A stretch of 37,741 nt of DNA from Draconibacterium orientale (GCA_020719345.1 DYQJ01000005.1:1-37741); one strand, 5' to 3'; counted from the first letter of the stretch, positions 2,517 to 25,624 are shown. A program made the numbers and translations. Notes: generated from the letters alone by a model not told the origin.

Positions 2517-2698
2517 GTGTAAAACGAGAGTTTTAGAAAACTAATAAATCCAAATGCAAAATTATTTGAAATAAAATAATAGAAAATATTGCATGCGATG
2601 AAGGAAAAAATTTTAGACAAAATTTTATCACTTGAAGAATTGTTGATGATGAGAGTGCCAAGAAAATGACTTATCTTGTTTTTAGCCATAGAGAAATG

Positions 2699-2739
2699 AA
2701 AGGAATGAAAGTTTTTTCTTTCATTTCTTTCATTCCTTT
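2699..2739 (-). terminator. Hairpin downstream of the coiled-coil gene
   Basis: Perfect 13-bp inverted repeat aaaggaatgaaag (2699-2711) / ctttcattccttt (2727-2739), just past the stop of the minus-strand gene ending at 2748. Confidence 0.45.
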
Positions 2740-2747
2740 GTGGTTCA

Positions 2748-3629
2748 TTATTTTAACAATTTATCTAATAGTTCTTTTCCGGAAGAGAAGAACAACATGG
2801 CAAATATGAGCGCATTTAAGATGGTCAAAATAATAACAAAGAAATTGGTTCGCGAGTTTTTAGATTGTATGCTTTTTACTTTTTGCAATATCAATAAATT
2901 GGTCTCGTTTTTTAATACCGAGTCTAATATGGTATTGTTATCTATTTGATTTTTACGTATTTCGGATAGCAAATGAATCATTTTATTCAATGTTTCATTG
3001 GTCTCGGCTTGTTTTGTTGTTATTTGATTAAGCTGCGCTTCAAAATCTATACTATTAAGTTCTTTTTTCAATGTGGCAGTTGCCTGTGCGAGTTCTAAAT
3101 AGCTGTTCAGTAGTTCATCTATTTTGTGCAACTTTTCTTCGTTGCTTAAAAGGGAGGCATTTATTCGTTCTGTTATCTTGTCGGCAAATATTTTTAAGCT
3201 TTGCTGATGAATGTCTACCTGTTTTTTATTTTCGTCTCCTATCTGATTAAGAATAGAACGATGATTATCTATTGCTCCTTTCAAATATTCATGCGTTAAA
3301 TCTTCGGTTCGCAAAGAGAGCTCCGTATATTTTTCCAGTACTCTCTCTTCATCTCGCACTTTTTCTTGAAACAGCTCGTACAATTTTCTTACGTTTTCTT
3401 CCGAGTGACGATATGTCTTGTTTAAATATTCTGAATACAAGGCGATTATTTTATTTAGCTGCTCGGCATATTTTTCTTGTATAGCTCTAATATTCGTAAC
3501 TGTGCCTTCAGTAAGGTCACCTACTCTTGTGATGTGTTTTACTGCACTATCTAAAAGACTTAGCTCGTCTTGTAGCTTTCGTAATTCTTTATTTATATTT
3601 TCTTCCATTAGTAATGTGTTATATTTCAT
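2748..3629 (-). CDS. Coiled-coil protein with C-terminal transmembrane anchor
   Basis: 293 aa; long heptad-rich E/K/L segments, then TNFFVIILTILNALIFAMLFFSS near the C-terminus. Start codon overlaps the upstream stop (ATGA). Confidence 0.75.
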   Translation of the reverse strand: MKYNTLLMEENINKELRKLQDELSLLDSAVKHITRVGDLTEGTVTNIRAIQEKYAEQLNKIIALYSEYLNKTYRHSEENVRKLYELFQEKVRDEERVLEKYTELSLRTEDLTHEYLKGAIDNHRSILNQIGDENKKQVDIHQQSLKIFADKITERINASLLSNEEKLHKIDELLNSYLELAQATATLKKELNSIDFEAQLNQITTKQAETNETLNKMIHLLSEIRKNQIDNNTILDSVLKNETNLLILQKVKSIQSKNSRTNFFVIILTILNALIFAMLFFSSGKELLDKLLK

Positions 3630-6600
3630 TGTTTTATTTTAAATCCTTTTAAAAAATTGGCATTGAATTGTCTCAGCCATTCTACATGATATTTTAGCTC
3701 AATAAAATCTTCAAATTTTGACTTGATAGAGCTATTTTTTTCGTAAATTTTCTCCAATAAATAATTTTTGTCGCGGTCAACAATCTCCGAGTTCGCATGC
3801 GTAGTCATTTGCATCATAGAATATCCGGCATTTATTTTGGATAGTCCGTCACTGACAATCTGCTCGTTGTCCGAGTTATACAAAATATCGGCAAATCCAT
3901 TAAGTATCTGGCAAATAGCATTGTTAGGATTTTCTTTGAGTAAAATATCTGTTGTTTTATATAGATGCGACAAGTTGTCTTTAAAATACGAGAGCTCTTT
4001 TATGTAATAATCTATAACTTCGTTATTTACAACAGAAATATTGCGCAAGCCAAATAAATATTTGGCATCAAAATAATCATTATGTAAGCTGCAAATATAA
4101 TCTTTATTTTTTGAATATCCATTCTCAGACAAATTAGGATTCTTTATTTGTGTTGCTACCAGATTTTGCATGGACACCAACGAATCACGTCTTTTGGCAA
4201 CAATATTTTGGTACCAGAATGTATTGAAAAAGATAAAAGATTTTTCTAACATGCTATCTGCTTCTATATCAGATAATTCTGACATCATCGTCTTCAATTT
4301 TTCTTCGGTTATATATAGTTTCAAATAATTTTGAAGCGAGTTATAATAAAAAATATCTTCCCGTTTTGTGAAATATATTGTTATCTCGGATTTGTGATAA
4401 TTGATTGTATAATCGTCAATTATATTTATCAACCACATCTTATGAACTACCGACCATGTCTGATAAAAATTTCGGCAGCGATTATACAAATCTACTACTT
4501 GGTTATAATTATCTCGCGTGAACTTGCTAAGATTTAATTCATTGCGTTTGAGTAACAACTCTTGAAATTCATTGAAATTATTTGACAACTTATAAAAGTT
4601 GTTTAGTTGCGAGTCCTCAAAATTTTCCCATATACTTGCTTTAATCTTTTTTGCGATTCTCTCCACATAATCATTTGTGAAACCGACAGTTAGAGTATTT
4701 TCTGCATTTAGCGTCATCTCTTGTAACAAAGTTTTCATTCCTTTGCTATTCTCTTTTTTTGTTGTAGTTTCAAGCCATGTAACTAGGTCAGTTTCCGATT
4801 GCCGTTTGGTTTCTATGTCGTTTTTGGCAAAATACAAAATGCGTTCGTTCATCTCTTTGTCGTAAACGGAAGATTTGATAACAATCTCATTGCTTTTAAA
4901 ATCTATGAATCCAATTAATTTTTCGGTTTTAAGAATATGCAATTGATGTGGATTCGTTCCCGGCTCGGTTCGTAATTCAAAGATGTCATCAAACTCATAA
5001 TCAAGATGTTCCTTCAAATTATTGATAGGTGTTTCGGTAGAATAAGATATTTCATTTATCAACTCCTCAAAGATAAACACATTTTTTTCGGCAGTTAGAT
5101 GTATTTTATCAAAGATAATATTTAATAAATTTATATCAGCTTCTTGATTATTGAAAAAAGTAGTTATCAAGGCATTATCTATTTGTCGTCCTGCACGCGC
5201 ATTGGTTTGTATAAAATGCTCTACCGACAGTGGTAAATGCAGATGTACTAAGTTATTGATTCCTTGCATATTTAATGCCACACGAATAGATTGTGAGGCA
5301 ATTAATATATTTTTTTCTTTATTTTTAAAACTTCTATAATCGCGGTACGAGTTATAACTTTTTATCTCACTAACGGCAAAAAAGCCATCATCTATCGTGC
5401 CTTCAAATTTGGCGAGAGATAAATTTTTCGCATTTTCCAATTTATCATAAATTCCATCACCTGTCTTTGTAGAGACACTTGTAAGTCCCTGTTGTTCAGT
5501 GCAAACGACTAATAAATTGTTGTCATTAGTAATTTTTTCCTCAATAAAATTAAACAATCTTTGTTGCTTATATATCTTAACGGCATTTTCAAGCATTGTA
5601 GAATCAGAGAGTTCTTCCGGATTTTCTATTTTTATATCAACAAATTGAAAATCCAGATTATTAAAATTATTTTTGTCATGCAATATTTTCAAATTGTTGT
5701 CTAATTTATTAGTAATGTCATAAATAACATTATAACTGCAATACGAAGAGAAAATATACAACGGCAGATGTGTCAAATTAGTTGGTTTACAATAAGTTTG
5801 CAAATTTCTTATTAAAGACGAATGCGCCATAGAAAAATCGTGTCCCCATTCGGAGATGCTATGCGCTTCGTTAATTATTGCCGAAGAAAATGTTAAATTA
5901 TTTTGTTTCATCTCGTTTAAAACATTTCTAAACTCTTGGGTTAAAAACATTTCTGCCGATATTAAGATAACTAATATTTCTTTATTTTTCAAGTTATTTA
6001 AGACTTTCTGTTTCTCTAACATCTTTGTTTGTAAGCGATTGACATAATAAATGCTATCTATTCCCTGATTTTTCATCTCGTCTATATATTCTTTGAGCGC
6101 CGACATGTTGGCAGGTATTACCATTGTGATGGCATTTTGAAAGAAATTAACAAATAAAGCAATGAAATTTCTATTCTGTGAGAATGCCGAGCTGACAAGA
6201 CAATTATTTAATCCCAACGCCGACAAAACAAATTCTAACTCGTTGTTAGACAACTCATATTTACGAAAAATAGTCCGTAAAAAGAAAGTTATACTATCGG
6301 TAACCGATGAGATTCTTTGTTCTGATATTTGATTATCCGGAGTAGAATATAAATCTTGATATTTTGTTAATTGATTATTAATAAGGAATTTGCGTCTGGA
6401 TTTTTGTCCGCGAGCGCTGCGAATTTGTGCATAATATTTAGCCGAGTTATTAAGATATTTGAAATCTATGCCGTTTCGTCTTAGAACAGAAACATCAACA
6501 ATCAAATCAAAATAACGACTTGATTCAAAATCTGATATAAGATATTTCTCACCTTGATAAAGCACATTTAGCTCTGCTTGTTCAAACTCTTCGCTGTGAT

Positions 6601-7696
6601 AAATAGTTAAATTTATTTTGGGTAATTTGCGTTGCGCATTTTCTATAATAGCGAAATTTTTGAAATAAAGTTTAAAATCTTCTATGGCAAGAAATCCGCA
6701 AGGAATGTCTTGCTCTATGACCGCAATATTCCACTGCTCTTGGTCTATGTTTAATTTATTAGCTAAAATAAATTCTATTAAAGTCTTATGAATGCGTGCT
6801 ATAGCAAGCGGCGCCAATGCTATTTGCAGTGCTTGACGTCCGTCTTCGGTCTTGTACAAAGGTGTTTTAAAAAATTTTTGAATATTCTCAAAATAATCAT
6901 CAGACAAAAAATATGATAACAATTCCAAATCTTTTTCTATGTTTTGGAAGCTGTCTTTTTTTAATCCTATATATGCATCCCAATTGACACTTTTTAGGAG
7001 TTTGTTTTTTAATTCTTCCGCTTTATAATCACTAAAATTATTGTCGGCGTCGTCTTCTAAGTTAATAATAATTCCTTTATAGTCTCGCTCCGTAAATGGT
7101 GATTCTATGGAGAAGCTGGTCTTTTCATATAAAAAATTATAACTTGCGTTTTTTGTTAATCTGTCTATATCTTCAAAATTATTCTCGTGATTTTCAATTA
7201 TATTTTTATAAGTTCTTCCGAAATCTATCATCTGAATCAAATAGTCACCGTAATATAGTGGCAGAATATCTAAGACAAAATATTTTTGCAATAAGACTTT
7301 TTCATCTTTTGTGTCATAAGTATATTTAGTAAAATATTTCTTATCAAAACGTGGCTCAACAATATGAAGTGCTTGATATATAATACGTTTGAAGTCATCG
7401 GTAGTAAAATTATATACAATGTCGTTCTGTGCGGTTATTTCTTTGGTAGTTTTAGAAAACGTATTCGCTATCATATCTTCAATAAAACACGAGGGACGAG
7501 TAGGCAGACCGCGGGTAAGCAGATTATTGAATCGGCACAAAATAGAGTCCATATTTGTGTGCTTCAAGTCGGCATTGGTCTCTAATTCAAAAAATGACAG
7601 CTGCCGCAATAAGTCCGTTACTTTATGTTTATTTTTATCTTGTAAAAACAAATTTTTTATCCCGTCAATAAAATAAGACGCTTGTAATTGTGCCAT
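3626..7696 (-). CDS. RecQ-like SF2 helicase-related protein, probably ATPase-defective
   Basis: 1356 aa. '[14 protein letters not shown]' matches the RecQ motif II/aromatic loop (IDEAHCxSQWGHDF). '[12 protein letters not shown]' matches motif VI. The Walker A position reads '[13 protein letters not shown]', with no GKS/T. Confidence 0.75.
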
Positions 7697-19021: not shown

Positions 19022-22000
19022 CTAATTGTTGTTTAAGAACTTAATTACGGCAAATTTAGCTGCGGCTATGGTTTCGCGATTAGCTTTCTCCATTATTTTG
19101 CTGCGATTGAGGTCTTCTACGCTGAGGTGTCCATGCATAATTAGGAGTTGTAAAATCATGTTATTAACAATTGTATCTTGCGAATACCCTCTTGCGATAT
19201 AAAGTTTATGACATTCGGCGAAAAATTCTTCGGAGAAATCATTGTTATTTGGTAAGCTCATTATTTGCAAATAAGTTTCGGAGAAGCTGTTTATTTCTGT
19301 ATTAATATTAGGAGTTACGAGTAGTGGCGAAAATTCGTAGTTCTTTTTAAGTGGCTTAAACCCTTTTAGTTTTGACATGTTAATAACAGTTTTCATGTCA
19401 TCGATTCTAACAAACTCGGCTTTTCGCATTTGTTCTATCTGCCAGAGGACGAAGTTGTATCTAAGTATTTCGGGACTGAGATAAGTATCCACGAATATAT
19501 GTTTGTAATGTTCTATTACGGTGTTTCTAACTTTTTGTTTATTTGCGTTAATTTCGGGATTTTCTATGCGTACTTCTTGTATTAGTTTTTGCAGTTCTTC
19601 GGCGGCTTTTTGTGGTCCGGAGATTTCTCTGCCTTTTCTACCTATGTCAGTAGATAATAGTCCGAGTTGAATTTTCGTTCCTTTACCTTTTCCATATTTT
19701 CCTTTCAAAATGTTGAGTAAGTGCAATTTAGTTTCAATTTGTCCTTCTTCCGAGATGAAAGGTTGTCCTGTAGGCGTGCTTGCGAGAGCATTAAACATGT
19801 TTGCAAACATATTTTTAGTTATCCAGACGCTAATAGTATTGTTATTCGTGTCGGTAGCGGTGGCGTTAAACCGATTTTTTATTATGTCAAATTGGATATT
19901 TAGTATCTTATAAGTGACATTATTTTGTATAAAAGTTTTGTCCACAAAAATTTGTTTGACAATATCTTCTATGTCAATTTTATCAATCAATTTATATGAT
20001 GAAGCCAAATAGAAATCAGTTGTACGGTCGTCTTTTTGCCAGTCGAGTATCTCGTCAAGATAATTTCCATGTTTATCAAGAACGGAGACGATATTAGGAT
20101 ATGCTGTATATCTTAACAAAGTTCGTTGAAAATGTGGGTGGTCTGAGCTGGTGGCTTTTTCTTTTCGTTCGCCATGCGATTCGCGGTAGTAAATAAAATT
20201 TTCGGGGTTGTCGTATCTGATAACACCGGCTTCTTGTCTTGCGAAATTGCTTGCTGTCAGCATAATATCAATTTTATAAGGCATTGAGATGTCGCAAAGT
20301 CCACTGATAGTGCTTCGTGAGTTGAGGTCTTCTACGTTGCTGTCCGAAGCGTTTTCAAAGAGGGAATTGTAATATTTTATATATTCCGGGTCAAAGTCGG
20401 TTACTCGTGAGAAGTCACCTACTTCGGTACCGATGCCATATAAATTTCCTTCTTGGTCAGGGAATATGTGGAACATGTCACCGGCGATTAATTTGATAGA
20501 GCGTATTCTGTTCATGTCTTTTTTCAACCACTTCAACATTAATGCGGCAAGCATTTCGGATTTTCCTACTCCACTGTCTCCGCTTACTTCTACCACGAAT
20601 ATTGCGCCGTCTTCTTCTTCTACGGCAAACATAGAGCCGTGTACGGGTATTCCTCCCATCTCTTTAACTTTTTCATTTATCATCGTGAGTCTCGGTTTCT
20701 TAACATCACCAAAATAGTCCACCTTCTTTTTTAGCGGAGTGATGAGTGTTTTTATTTTGCCGTTAGGTCCATTTAAGTCAAAATAACCTATTTGCGGGAA
20801 TGAGATGACTTTTTCAGGAGCGCCGAGTATCATAATCACATCCGGCACAAACGTTTTTATTTGTTCCAACGTGACATCGTTATAGCTTAGCAGTCTGTAA
20901 TTATCAGCCAGATATTTAATATAAGATTTGTGAAAGACAACTAATTCTTTAATAAGTCCTTGCGCTATTATTTTGCAACGGTAGTCTTGCTTGTCTATAT
21001 TTTTGACAAATTTTTCTAATCGTTTGGCAAAAAAGTCGGCATTCGGCTTAGGTGCGAGATTTTTAATGTAGTCATTGATAGAAGGATTGAGTTTAGAATT
21101 TTCTATTCCTTTCTTTCGCAATTCTTCTTCGTGTTCGGTTCGGTCAATTTTGTGAAATGGATATTCGCGTTTTTTGGCGTCAGTAACTATTCGGGTGTGC
21201 ATTTGTACGGGTTGCTCGGCGGAGATGACTCCACAATTTTTTAACATCTCGTTGATCCATTTTAAAGAGCCGTTATTGTAGTAATATAATATATTCTCTT
21301 GATTATCAAATCCGGAGTATATAGTTATGCCATGTTGTATCATCTCGTTAATAGCCGAGTTTTGACGTTTGAACTCTATTTCAGTGAATTTCATTAAGAA
21401 GTGAGTATATTTATCATAATATTCGGTGGACTTGGTTCTATTTATTATATCAATGATAAATATCGCCATTCTGCGGCATTCGTTATGGAGATTCGTTATA
21501 GAAATTTTGGTATTTTCTGTCTCGCCAATTTGCAATAAAATAGATTCTAATTCGGTATTCAACAAATCATATAAAATATTTTCTGCGAACATTACATCTT
21601 GCGAATCAGAGTATTTAACTATTTGATTTTCATATACGGCTATTTTTTTCAACAAAAGATTTTCAAAATTTTTATCTCGTTTCAAAAGATATAAGAAGAG
21701 TATTTTCTTGGCAAATTCGGTTTCTTTGTTATCAATAAATAGCAGTAAATATTTGCTAATCAGTCCAATGTATTTATCGTTTTGCTTGAGATGGACAAAT
21801 TTTTCGGTATATCTAATTTCATGCATCAGAGCTTCGGTGTAGGATTTTATACCAAAGTCGGTTATCGGGTTTCGTGTGATTTCTTGATATTTTGTCAAAG
21901 TAGTAAAAAACAGTTCTTTAATAGAAGGTTCGTGTCCGTTGTTTGCGAAAGGTAAATTAAAATTGATAAGTAGCTCTTTGATAAACTTTTTCAAGATTTG

Positions 22001-25000
22001 ATTAGCACCTTCTAATCGTTGTCGGTCAAAGTTTACATCATTAGATGCGTTGAGTGCCATGATTTTGAACTTAGCATTAGAAAAGAGTATATTTTCCATC
22101 TCTATCAAAATTTCTTTCATTATACTAATTTCGTCGGCGTCGTCAAGTACGTAGTTATTCGGTTGATTATCAAACTTATTTTCTATGTACTTTAAAATAG
22201 TCGGTTTGCCGTATTTAGAGCGCACTATTCTATAGTCCAATTTTTTGATGGCAGGAATATTTTTATATATCTGTGGCAAAAGATTTTCGTATATTTTAGT
22301 AAATGCCTTGCTTCGGATAAAATCTTTTATATCAGTGCAGTTGCCTATAATTTCGGAAAATTCAAATACCGAGTTTTTAGATTCGGGTATTCCATTGATA
22401 CACACGCCACTATCGGTAGGAAAAGCCAGATATAAAGTTATCTCATTAGATATTTTTAAGCTGTCTATCTTAGTTTTTTTAATATCTTTAATAAGATAAA
22501 AATCTATTATCACATTATTAATAAACTCTTTATCTGATGCCGAAGCAAAAATTTCTTTTAAGAGGTCTTCCGAACGTTTGTTTTTATTTTTTATGTCGTT
22601 TCTCGCTTCTATATAAATAGTCCAGTATTTAAAAAATATTTGTAAAGCGTTTTTAAATTCTTTTCCGAAGTCGTCATAGCTTTTGTCGTTTCCTTGCAAA
22701 TATCCGCCCATAGAAAATCTGACGAATCCTGTTTTATACGGAATGACAGCGATGCCGCGTTGCTCGGTCAGTTTTTTGGTAAATTTTTCAAGACCTTGAT
22801 AAGACGTGATGTCTTTCAATATCAAGTTGAATAAGTAAGAACCATCCGAGTTGACTATTTTAGCATATCTGTCATAGTTATTTTGAGTAATAACCTCATT
22901 AGCAATGTCCTTAGCTATTTGCATACGGAGTGCGGATTCTTTTAAAAAGACTTTATTGACTCTAAAATTATTTAGATTCCTCAATAATTGCGAGTGATAA
23001 TATTTGAAAAATGCTTGTCCTTTATAAATAAAATCATCAGGCAGATTAAGGACTTCTAATTTATCTATGGCTTTGAGTTCGTCAAGTAGAAATATATGTA
23101 ACGGACTTCCCTCAAAATCAGATATTTGCGCATCGGATTTGATATTATCGGCTATACACTTTTTGATACTTCGCCACGAGGCATTTTGAGAGAGATATTC
23201 TTCTAATTGGTCTTTGTATTTTTTAGCTCTTTGTGCGGTCTCCAAAATTTTTATTAACATATAAATAGAATTGGTGTTACAATATTCACCGCTATTTTGT
23301 TGCTTTGCATAGCTAATAACATCTTGTCGCATTGGAGTAGCCACAAGACAGCCAAGACGATTGCCTGTTCCACTTAGATTTTTTGTCGTAGAAATAGAAG
23401 AGACGATGCTAATATTAGGAAAACTTTGAATATTGTTCAAAACATATCTTGAGATGGAGCGCCATTTAGGTTCCAAAATATTAGGATTTTTAACCGAATC
23501 GTTGTAAGCTTCGTCAAGAAATAAAGTTATTTTTGTCATGCCGATGAACTTGAGAAAGGTCACAAAATTTTCGTTATTGAAGTCGGTGTATCCGGTGGGA
23601 TTTGAAGGGTCGTTGATGACAATAGTAAGGTTTTCACAAAATCTGTCCCATAAATTTCCGGTGTCGTCGAACAAAGTAAAGGTGCTTTTCATGCGCATCA
23701 GACGTAATGTTAGCCGTTGCCAATAGATTCGTCCTTCTTCGTTCATGCCTATTTCCAAATCAAAGGAGTTAATATCAAATCTATCAAACGGAAATAAGTC
23801 TTGATATTCCCATGATAAATCCATGTTATACAATATGTAAGGTCTTAGACTTTCTTCTTTATGAAAAAGGATATCTCTAATAATCATCTGGACGTCATCC
23901 GAGATGGAAGTTTTATCTATATTGCCTAAGTCGGAAAGAAAACTTTTTAAGATATTTTTTTCTTCTTCGGTTTTGCTGTCATATTGATTTTTTATCCCTA
24001 AGTCAAGCAAGAAGTTAGTAAAACGTCCTTTGTTGTCGGCTTCGTTTTCGCGCTTCGTCAAATGTTCTTTGTAACGTTCTAAAAATAAATTTATTCCGAA
24101 GTTCTTATGAAAATGGTTTTTCAAAGTTCGGCTGTAATTATTAGGGATAATATCTAATATAGTTCGGCATTTTTTGAGGATAGCCGAGTCAATGGGTTTT
24201 AGTTTTCGTTGCAACAGATATTCGCCATAGGTTCGGATTTGATTGCGTCCTCCGCCTTCTGTTATGGTTGCTATTTGCAAATATTTATTGTTGGAATAAG
24301 AATATTGACGGGTTCGCATCTCGTATTCTGCGATAAGCTCGGTGTTTTGAATTTTAAATATTTCAGGATTATTAATGTTGATAATCAATTTAATATAATT
24401 ATTAAGTTTTGTAACCGCATATTTATCTTTGATTATTTGTTGTGCGAAATCATCAAATTTGTAGAGCATCGTATTTTTTTCTACATTATGCAATTCGCCT
24501 ATTTGTTCAGTTTTGATGGCATCTAATTCTTCCTGATAATCTTTTATTTTATTCTCTAACAGCGAGACAAATTTTTTAAGCAATTCTACATTTATTTTAT
24601 CTAAAATAAGTCTTAGATTGAGTTGAGTATTTGCAAGTGAGCCGAGTTTTTTATTATGGACTTTGTTTAAAGTGTTAATTATTCCGTTGTGAAAACAAAA
24701 GACTAATGAGGTATTAGTAGCTTGTGATTCAAAAGAGTCATCTACAAAAATAATTCTTGACAGATAGGGAAACCATTTTTTCTCTGTCAATATATTTCGT
24801 CTCATGTTTTTTATTTTTACGACAAAAATATTAGTAAAATCGTCTTTTATAGTTTCAAACAAGATTTCCTGATTCTGATATTCAATAATTTTCACATTAC
24901 TGTTTCTAAAAACTTCTTCGGAGATTAATTTTATTGTTGTTCCGGAATTAGCACTGACTACTGTTCGGATAAATCCGTTTAGTCCTTTATAATTAACTGT

Positions 25001-25624
25001 TAATTCTGTTTTTTCCAAAAAGTCGCGTTTTTCGGCGACGGTGGTATAATGTGTAGATTGTATTATCATCTGGTCTAAGACTTCGAGCAAATAGTTCCAC
25101 TGCGATTTTTCTTGGTCATCGGTGATTCCTATAACTTCGGTAAATTTTTTAAATTCGTCGGCTTTATTACCTAATAATAAGTCATATAAATAATCAATCA
25201 AATTTTGTGTAACCGGAGGAGTGCCGATGGAAAAATCTTGTGATGCCAAAATATTATTAGCTTGATTCTTAGTATTTTCATCTACAGACTCGTTGTCAAT
25301 CAGTGCGGTTAGTCTATCTACAAATTCTAATTTTTGTGTTCTATATTGGAATGCTTTAGAGTCTTCATGCGGGCTGAGCATTAGCGAGACATCTACATAA
25401 CCGGGAATGGCTTCTTTGAGCTCTATAATTTGCTTGTTTATTTCGCTACCTATCTTAGCGATGTCATCTGCCGGCTCGTAACAGAGACGGACAAAAGTAG
25501 CCAATTTTTCAAAGATATAACTGGGGAGAAAGTTCTCGGCGCGCTCACCGAGAGAAGAATACAAATTGACAAAGTCCTTAGCATCATGTTTTAATTCTAA
25601 TTTTAATTTTCCGGGTAACTGCAT
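19022..25624 (-). CDS. Giant multidomain protein: PLP-dependent aminotransferase fold type I core plus PEPCK/HPr-kinase-like P-loop kinase region
   Basis: Uninterrupted 2200-aa ORF. 'NDPSNPTGYTDF', 'TLFLDEAYNDSV', 'SSISTTKNLSGTGNRLGCLVA', 'GFVRFSMGG' (aminotransferase). 'GGIPVHGSMFAVEEEDGAIFVVEVSGDSGVGKSEMLAALM...IKLIAGDMFHI' (P-loop kinase of PEPCK/HprK type). Confidence 0.8.
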   Translation of the reverse strand: MQLPGKLKLELKHDAKDFVNLYSSLGERAENFLPSYIFEKLATFVRLCYEPADDIAKIGSEINKQIIELKEAIPGYVDVSLMLSPHEDSKAFQYRTQKLEFVDRLTALIDNESVDENTKNQANNILASQDFSIGTPPVTQNLIDYLYDLLLGNKADEFKKFTEVIGITDDQEKSQWNYLLEVLDQMIIQSTHYTTVAEKRDFLEKTELTVNYKGLNGFIRTVVSANSGTTIKLISEEVFRNSNVKIIEYQNQEILFETIKDDFTNIFVVKIKNMRRNILTEKKWFPYLSRIIFVDDSFESQATNTSLVFCFHNGIINTLNKVHNKKLGSLANTQLNLRLILDKINVELLKKFVSLLENKIKDYQEELDAIKTEQIGELHNVEKNTMLYKFDDFAQQIIKDKYAVTKLNNYIKLIININNPEIFKIQNTELIAEYEMRTRQYSYSNNKYLQIATITEGGGRNQIRTYGEYLLQRKLKPIDSAILKKCRTILDIIPNNYSRTLKNHFHKNFGINLFLERYKEHLTKRENEADNKGRFTNFLLDLGIKNQYDSKTEEEKNILKSFLSDLGNIDKTSISDDVQMIIRDILFHKEESLRPYILYNMDLSWEYQDLFPFDRFDINSFDLEIGMNEEGRIYWQRLTLRLMRMKSTFTLFDDTGNLWDRFCENLTIVINDPSNPTGYTDFNNENFVTFLKFIGMTKITLFLDEAYNDSVKNPNILEPKWRSISRYVLNNIQSFPNISIVSSISTTKNLSGTGNRLGCLVATPMRQDVISYAKQQNSGEYCNTNSIYMLIKILETAQRAKKYKDQLEEYLSQNASWRSIKKCIADNIKSDAQISDFEGSPLHIFLLDELKAIDKLEVLNLPDDFIYKGQAFFKYYHSQLLRNLNNFRVNKVFLKESALRMQIAKDIANEVITQNNYDRYAKIVNSDGSYLFNLILKDITSYQGLEKFTKKLTEQRGIAVIPYKTGFVRFSMGGYLQGNDKSYDDFGKEFKNALQIFFKYWTIYIEARNDIKNKNKRSEDLLKEIFASASDKEFINNVIIDFYLIKDIKKTKIDSLKISNEITLYLAFPTDSGVCINGIPESKNSVFEFSEIIGNCTDIKDFIRSKAFTKIYENLLPQIYKNIPAIKKLDYRIVRSKYGKPTILKYIENKFDNQPNNYVLDDADEISIMKEILIEMENILFSNAKFKIMALNASNDVNFDRQRLEGANQILKKFIKELLINFNLPFANNGHEPSIKELFFTTLTKYQEITRNPITDFGIKSYTEALMHEIRYTEKFVHLKQNDKYIGLISKYLLLFIDNKETEFAKKILFLYLLKRDKNFENLLLKKIAVYENQIVKYSDSQDVMFAENILYDLLNTELESILLQIGETENTKISITNLHNECRRMAIFIIDIINRTKSTEYYDKYTHFLMKFTEIEFKRQNSAINEMIQHGITIYSGFDNQENILYYYNNGSLKWINEMLKNCGVISAEQPVQMHTRIVTDAKKREYPFHKIDRTEHEEELRKKGIENSKLNPSINDYIKNLAPKPNADFFAKRLEKFVKNIDKQDYRCKIIAQGLIKELVVFHKSYIKYLADNYRLLSYNDVTLEQIKTFVPDVIMILGAPEKVISFPQIGYFDLNGPNGKIKTLITPLKKKVDYFGDVKKPRLTMINEKVKEMGGIPVHGSMFAVEEEDGAIFVVEVSGDSGVGKSEMLAALMLKWLKKDMNRIRSIKLIAGDMFHIFPDQEGNLYGIGTEVGDFSRVTDFDPEYIKYYNSLFENASDSNVEDLNSRSTISGLCDISMPYKIDIMLTASNFARQEAGVIRYDNPENFIYYRESHGERKEKATSSDHPHFQRTLLRYTAYPNIVSVLDKHGNYLDEILDWQKDDRTTDFYLASSYKLIDKIDIEDIVKQIFVDKTFIQNNVTYKILNIQFDIIKNRFNATATDTNNNTISVWITKNMFANMFNALASTPTGQPFISEEGQIETKLHLLNILKGKYGKGKGTKIQLGLLSTDIGRKGREISGPQKAAEELQKLIQEVRIENPEINANKQKVRNTVIEHYKHIFVDTYLSPEILRYNFVLWQIEQMRKAEFVRIDDMKTVINMSKLKGFKPLKKNYEFSPLLVTPNINTEINSFSETYLQIMSLPNNNDFSEEFFAECHKLYIARGYSQDTIVNNMILQLLIMHGHLSVEDLNRSKIMEKANRETIAAAKFAVIKFLNNN

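Follow-up and report, generated by a model that had tools for sequence, protein, structure and literature searches.

A RecQ-like protein with eroded ATPase motifs and its predicted tail-anchored partner in Bacteroidales

A long reading frame of Draconibacterium orientale raises the question of whether a RecQ-like helicase that has lost its ATPase motifs is a gene in decay, an error of sequencing, or a protein retained for another purpose. The frame lies in a window of 37,741 nucleotides (GCA_020719345.1 DYQJ01000005.1:1-37741), which is the whole stretch of DNA analyzed here; the features are collected in Table 1. The original prediction, made from the sequence alone, had described an otherwise intact frame of 1356 residues, and this frame was found to be open throughout. 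The encoded protein matched the NCBIfam recQ model (E = 5e-21; 74.8 bits against a curated cutoff of 640.2, which was not reached), scored above the cutoff of Helicase_C, and matched the sequence of the Escherichia coli RecQ structure 1oyw (E = 8e-10). By these matches, the likeness of the sequence to RecQ is beyond chance. When an AlphaFold2 model of the protein (pLDDT 88, pTM 0.91) was searched with Foldseek, RecQ catalytic cores were the first matches (E about 1e-16), and in this model the RecQ fold is retained. No Pfam match to RQC or HRDC was found in the window protein, and a fold search of the C-terminal domain against the PDB gave no match below E = 0.3.

Table 1. Features of the pseudo-RecQ locus (window coordinates)
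Feature	Position	Strand	Basis
Pseudo-RecQ protein, intact frame, 1356 aa	3626..7696	-	ORF; orthologues
DUF559-type PD-(D/E)xK nuclease remnant, residues about 190-246	6959..7129	-	alignment; Pfam DUF559 in homologue L117
Middle domain, residues 268-450	6347..6895	-	conservation in alignments
RecQ core, first RecA-like domain, residues about 459-690, ATP motifs lost	5627..6322	-	AlphaFold2/Foldseek; motif table
Walker A position, residues 502-514, Lys to Arg, GxGKS absent	6155..6193	-	motif table
Walker B position, residues 609-612, NEAH replacing DEAH	5861..5872	-	motif table
RecQ-specific aromatic-rich loop (SEWGHDF), kept	5834..5869	-	motif table
Motif III region, SSYCS where TATAS is expected	5735..5749	-	motif table
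RecQ core, second RecA-like domain, residues about 699-850	5147..5602	-	AlphaFold2/Foldseek
Motif VI, QTNARAGRQ, both Arg kept	5183..5209	-	motif table
C-terminal domain, residues 860-1356, confidently folded in model	3629..5119	-	predicted structure
Partner, 293-aa coiled-coil protein with one C-terminal membrane helix	2748..3629	-	ATGA overlap with pseudo-RecQ stop
Membrane helix predicted at the C-terminal end of the partner (19 residues, hydropathy 2.77)	2787..2843	-	hydropathy
Near-palindrome, 17 pairs, terminator-like, just after partner gene	2695..2734		sequence

The helicase motifs were compared in a table covering 64 homologues. At Walker A the window reads SSAFSQNRN, with the glycines gone and the lysine replaced by arginine; the absence of GxGKS stood as predicted, the position formerly put at about 6149-6192 being off by a few bases. 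NEAH was found for DEAH at exactly the position given beforehand and SSY for TAT within motif III, and the RecQ-specific loop and the QTNARAGRQ of motif VI, both said to be kept, were located. The replacement of the Q-motif glutamine by Glu486 had been missed. In a 48-homologue alignment, the Walker A lysine and the DExH aspartate, which are Arg and Asn in the window, are conserved in at least 90% of sequences. The window protein shares with RecQ helicases (E. coli RecQ, 1oyw) the two RecA-like domains, the aromatic-rich loop and motif VI; it differs from them in its missing Walker A, TAT and Q-motif Gln, in NEAH for DExH, and in long N- and C-terminal domains that RecQ does not have. Sequence homology, the model and the motif alignment together bear out a RecQ-like protein with eroded ATPase motifs. 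The missing motifs might be a sequencing or assembly error, in favor of which it can be said that the assembly is fragmented (442 contigs), or a P-loop might lie elsewhere in the protein. Both explanations were rejected and are extremely improbable, since the frame is intact, similar erosion recurs across many independent assemblies, and the alignment of the family's homologues contains no alternative conserved P-loop.

Five true long orthologues were found in related genomes. Searching with a profile recovered about 37 members from 393 genomes of the order. A single-protein search of genome contigs gave no match, whereas a profile scan of an 84,980-species collection yielded 63 loci, mostly in Bacteroidales; members outside that order belong to Hymenobacter, Flavobacteriales, Ignavibacteriota, Kapaibacteria and Cloacimonadota. 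Two full-length members are plasmid-borne, and no homologue was found in the viral contigs and phage records searched. When the helicase and nuclease columns were left out of the tree, the family split with 99% support into two groups, A and B, of which group B (Bacteroidales) contains the window; a second tree built without the helicase columns only gave the same main groups. Over the tree columns, the window protein shares only 36% identity with its nearest homologue.

The original prediction had left about 480 N-terminal residues with no function assigned. That description could be refined, and a nuclease remnant and a middle domain were delimited there. The N-terminal region of group A has the EhDGxxH...D..R pattern of DUF559-type PD-(D/E)xK nucleases, and Pfam DUF559 itself matched the group A homologue L117 (26.8 bits; cutoff, 20.6), the other group A members scanned falling below the cutoff. 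No member of group B has this pattern. In the window its catalytic residues have been replaced: the conserved DF is SF, EhDGxxH is NLEDDAD and RD is KN, and as read from the alignment this second active site, upstream of the helicase, is dead as well. The middle domain carries five invariant residues (R301, E328, D330, P359 and D401) and two that are nearly so (D397 and R426), and within group B it is the most conserved part of the protein. In a wider phylum sample it was confined to ORFs of 1129-1506 aa (10 of 395 genomes besides that of the window). Sequence profiles found no known relative of the middle domain, and an N-terminal profile compared with PDB sequences gave nothing credible (best E = 0.11). 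A large-model fold search of two libraries gave only helicases among the matches listed and was therefore uninformative on the middle domain. A receiver-like origin, hinted at by VIExD...DLLIDIS, was rejected by profile comparison (hhalign probability, 0.9%, in the wrong region). The conservation points to a newly delimited domain with a candidate active site.

The two groups differ sharply in what they have kept. The nuclease motif is present in 19 of 24 group A members, leaving 5/24 without it, and in 0 of 37 in group B; full helicase motifs are present in 21/24 and 2/37, respectively. Since the two group B members with full helicase motifs (L087 and L089) already lack the nuclease pattern, loss of the nuclease most likely preceded loss of the helicase motifs. 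A single clade of Walker A loss was rejected (p-AU = 3.5e-45). On the assumption that motifs are not regained, and counting only forks with at least 95% support, losses number at least 6 for GK[ST] of Walker A, at least 6 for DE of motif II and at least 10 for the motif VI arginines, of which one lies in group A; the sister pairs L100/L103 and L075/L138 differ directly. Compared across homologues, the Walker erosion is thus common to the clade, recurrent, and not of single origin. Some group B members, notably a 15-row rumen clade (L071-L074 and relatives), retain GKT and DE and may therefore still bind or hydrolyze ATP. That clade keeps GK[ST] and DEAQ and has lost motif III and, in most rows, the motif VI arginines; to judge by these motifs, ATP binding without unwinding may still be possible there. 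L142, L145 and L128 form a divergent branch of group A in which the nuclease motif is absent and motif VI reads GRxGH rather than GRxGR.

Sequence conservation shows where constraint now lies. Mean identity in group A is higher in the helicase (0.50) than in the middle domain (0.36), and in group B this order is reversed (0.24 versus 0.44); the window compared with group B gave 0.21 for the helicase and 0.42 for the middle domain. Pairwise dN/dS ratios in group B ranged from 0.04 to 0.25 for the helicase region and, when every region is considered, from 0.03 to 0.28; these values are approximate because many pairs have dS near or above 1. The ratios come from group B clade mates, the search having turned up no close relative in the window's own lineage. 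The expectation of a dN/dS below 1 was borne out: in the clade mates open to testing, every domain gave a ratio far lower than that. Slow decay, in which the gene is heading for loss and its intact frame is historical, could account for the shortened members L025 (1100 aa) and L133 (1216 aa) and for L105, which is split into two frames. It is nevertheless very unlikely, given that most members are full-length, that the middle-domain residues are invariant, that dN/dS is well below 0.3 in all domains, and that the gene is fixed in three genera (see below). The view that this is not simply a decayed gene agrees with the shared, recurrent erosion and with the low dN/dS in clade mates. By sequence comparison, the window protein is a retained pseudo-helicase, neither a decaying gene nor a sequencing error.

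A near-constant membrane partner was overlooked in the original prediction. In about 55 of the 56 loci with enough flanking sequence, the next gene downstream encodes a partner with one strong predicted membrane helix; the exception is L133, and the partner of L143 was identified by profile, not by distance. Partners range from 107 to 463 aa, and the helix usually lies within about 20 residues of the C terminus; those of L128 and L142 are longer coiled-coil proteins of 426-463 aa. In alignments and models, the order within the large protein is N-terminal region, DUF559-type nuclease, middle domain, RecQ core and C-terminal domain. Together, the approximately 1400-aa helicase-nuclease protein and the tail-anchored coiled-coil partner make up a two-gene cassette, delimited by more than 60 homologues and apparently one that has not been named. 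The window has both marks of the cassette, namely, a middle domain with R301, E328, D330 and D401 and an adjacent downstream tail-anchored partner. The helicase cores of group A match PADLOC models of DpdF, the RecQ-like helicase of the Dpd system (E down to 1e-84); the window differs from DpdF in scoring 20 bits on the NCBIfam DpdF model, against a cutoff of 550, and in its two-gene context.

In the genera sampled, the gene is fixed in group B and patchy in group A. A group B member was found in three genera in 16/18, 5/7 and 3/4 of the genomes, respectively, and in 15 of 15 good ones (completeness 90% or more, contamination 5% or less); these counts come from three group B genera, the window's own family being represented by a single genome. 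In two genera with group A members, the gene was present in 1/5 and 1/17 genomes and in 1 of 10 good genomes (Fisher test on good genomes, B versus A, P = 5e-6). Group B neighbors include SecDF, adenylosuccinate lyase, the DNA polymerase III delta subunit, a SurA-like PPIase and a T9SS plug protein. Group A neighbors include a DNA methylase, GmrSD, a reverse transcriptase and UvrD, with others that are ordinary, such as tRNA synthetases and a cytochrome; two plasmid copies adjoin DISARM-like DUF1998/helicase genes and a restriction cluster. Patchy presence, together with a defense-island or plasmid setting, was seen for several group A members and not for group B, and may point to an immune-system role of group A. 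One alternative is that the window protein belongs to a still-active anti-phage system with a changed output, in which nuclease and motor can be dispensed with because the tail-anchored partner is a killing effector and the large protein only its sensor. Essentially every locus of both groups has retained the partner, and several group A members lie near defense genes, as this alternative would lead one to expect; however, group B is fixed in genera, has housekeeping neighbors and is under strong purifying selection, unlike most defense genes, and we consider this alternative unlikely. Repeated loss, fixation in Bacteroidales and the membrane partner instead give group B the appearance of an old mobile immune-type machine turned resident. 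We judge it likely that the window protein is a catalytically dead, domesticated and retained member of a defense-type helicase-nuclease family.

Pseudohelicases are already known in RecC, AddB and Utp25. RecC also has a dead nuclease-like domain. The resemblance to RecC and AddB lies in a helicase fold that no longer has its motifs and has been retained for recognition, their inactivated helicase domains recognizing Chi (PMC4824097). RecC and AddB differ in belonging to SF1, whereas the window family is of the SF2 RecQ type, with repeated losses, a membrane-anchored partner and no known active motor partner. Utp25, a yeast pseudohelicase, has a DEAD-box fold with dispensable motifs (PMC9539457); it differs in being a eukaryotic ribosome assembly factor with unrelated extra domains. 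By analogy, we propose that the window protein is a RecQ counterpart of RecC and AddB. The analogy could be taken further if the dead RecQ were the non-motor half of a pair, with a canonical RecQ supplying the motor and being steered or regulated by it, as in AddA/AddB or RecB/RecC. The genome of the window does have four further RecQ-like frames, and in one rumen subclade (L109, L112, L113, L114, L139 and L146) a RecQ-like gene of 735-736 aa lies directly upstream on the same strand. That arrangement is limited to the one subclade, however, and the corresponding neighbor of the window gene is a divergent pseudouridine glycosidase-type (Indigoidine_A) gene, making such a pairing improbable.

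These comparisons document a pattern of loss and retention that comprises motif loss, repeated losses, purifying selection among clade mates, the partner, and fixation in three genera. A bolder reading, which we hold with somewhat less than even confidence, is that an immune machine was captured, that its motor was emptied in many lineages, and that its job moved to the middle domain at the inner membrane, together with the partner. On the domestication reading judged likely above, which is also the most economical one, the ancestral form, represented by group A, would have been a mobile defense-type cassette coding for a fusion of nuclease, middle domain, active RecQ motor and C-terminal domain, along with the partner. 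One Bacteroidales lineage (group B) would then have become a resident core gene, a direction from A to B that we infer on a tree that is not outgroup-rooted. In group B the nuclease site would have been lost, and the ATPase motor would have been lost or weakened many times afterwards; on the bolder reading this happened independently because the job had by then moved to the middle domain. Selection would still act on the middle and C-terminal domains, on the RecQ fold as a whole and on the partner. The middle domain would carry a conserved activity or contact site, and the dead RecQ core would provide a passive platform for either nucleic acid or a partner, tethered at the inner membrane through the coiled-coil protein. 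What we infer in this scheme is that the protein binds DNA, that it is tethered and what it does in the cell; the nucleic-acid-binding scaffold or sensor of the original prediction is likewise a possible role, and the specific form of a membrane-tethered nucleic-acid platform, which is drawn by analogy, is put forward more tentatively still.

A literature search, with subscription papers mostly outside its reach, found no description of a bacterial RecQ-family pseudohelicase, a DUF559-RecQ system or this cassette. The family adds a helicase-nuclease cassette, probably an unnamed one, that has a membrane partner and is found in defense-like contexts. Because the dead recognition helicases RecC, AddB and Utp25 are few and old, the change from motor to scaffold cannot be watched in them. 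The present family includes motors that are fully intact, half-eroded and emptied; the eroded branch lacks the nuclease site throughout, and the partner is nearly always kept. With this full range in one family, domain swaps and deletions could test in what order the parts were lost and what function remains. If the capture reading proposed above is true, a single gene family would contain a natural progression from a working helicase to a dead scaffold.

Several minor observations were made on the loci and on the window. In the rumen subclade with an upstream RecQ-like gene (7771-9978 in L109), that gene may form one operon with the pseudo-RecQ gene. A record titled Candidatus Beckwithbacteria contains a cassette 89% identical to an Ignavibacteria one (L092 and L093), and a record titled Lachnospiraceae (L122) contains a Bacteroidota-like copy; both could reflect either transfer or mis-binned contigs. 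At a contig end, L023 (1-400) has short repeats encoding VPFVDKNFRALRAFRGQK-like peptides. Elsewhere in the window, a 2200-aa ORF (19022-25624, minus strand) has an aminotransferase class I/II domain at residues 667-811 and, beyond it, a GDSGVGKSE P-loop that by eye resembles that of HPr kinase/PEPCK. No sequence match to this ORF was found in the PDB, and full-length homologues with 53-57% identity are present in three other families of the order.
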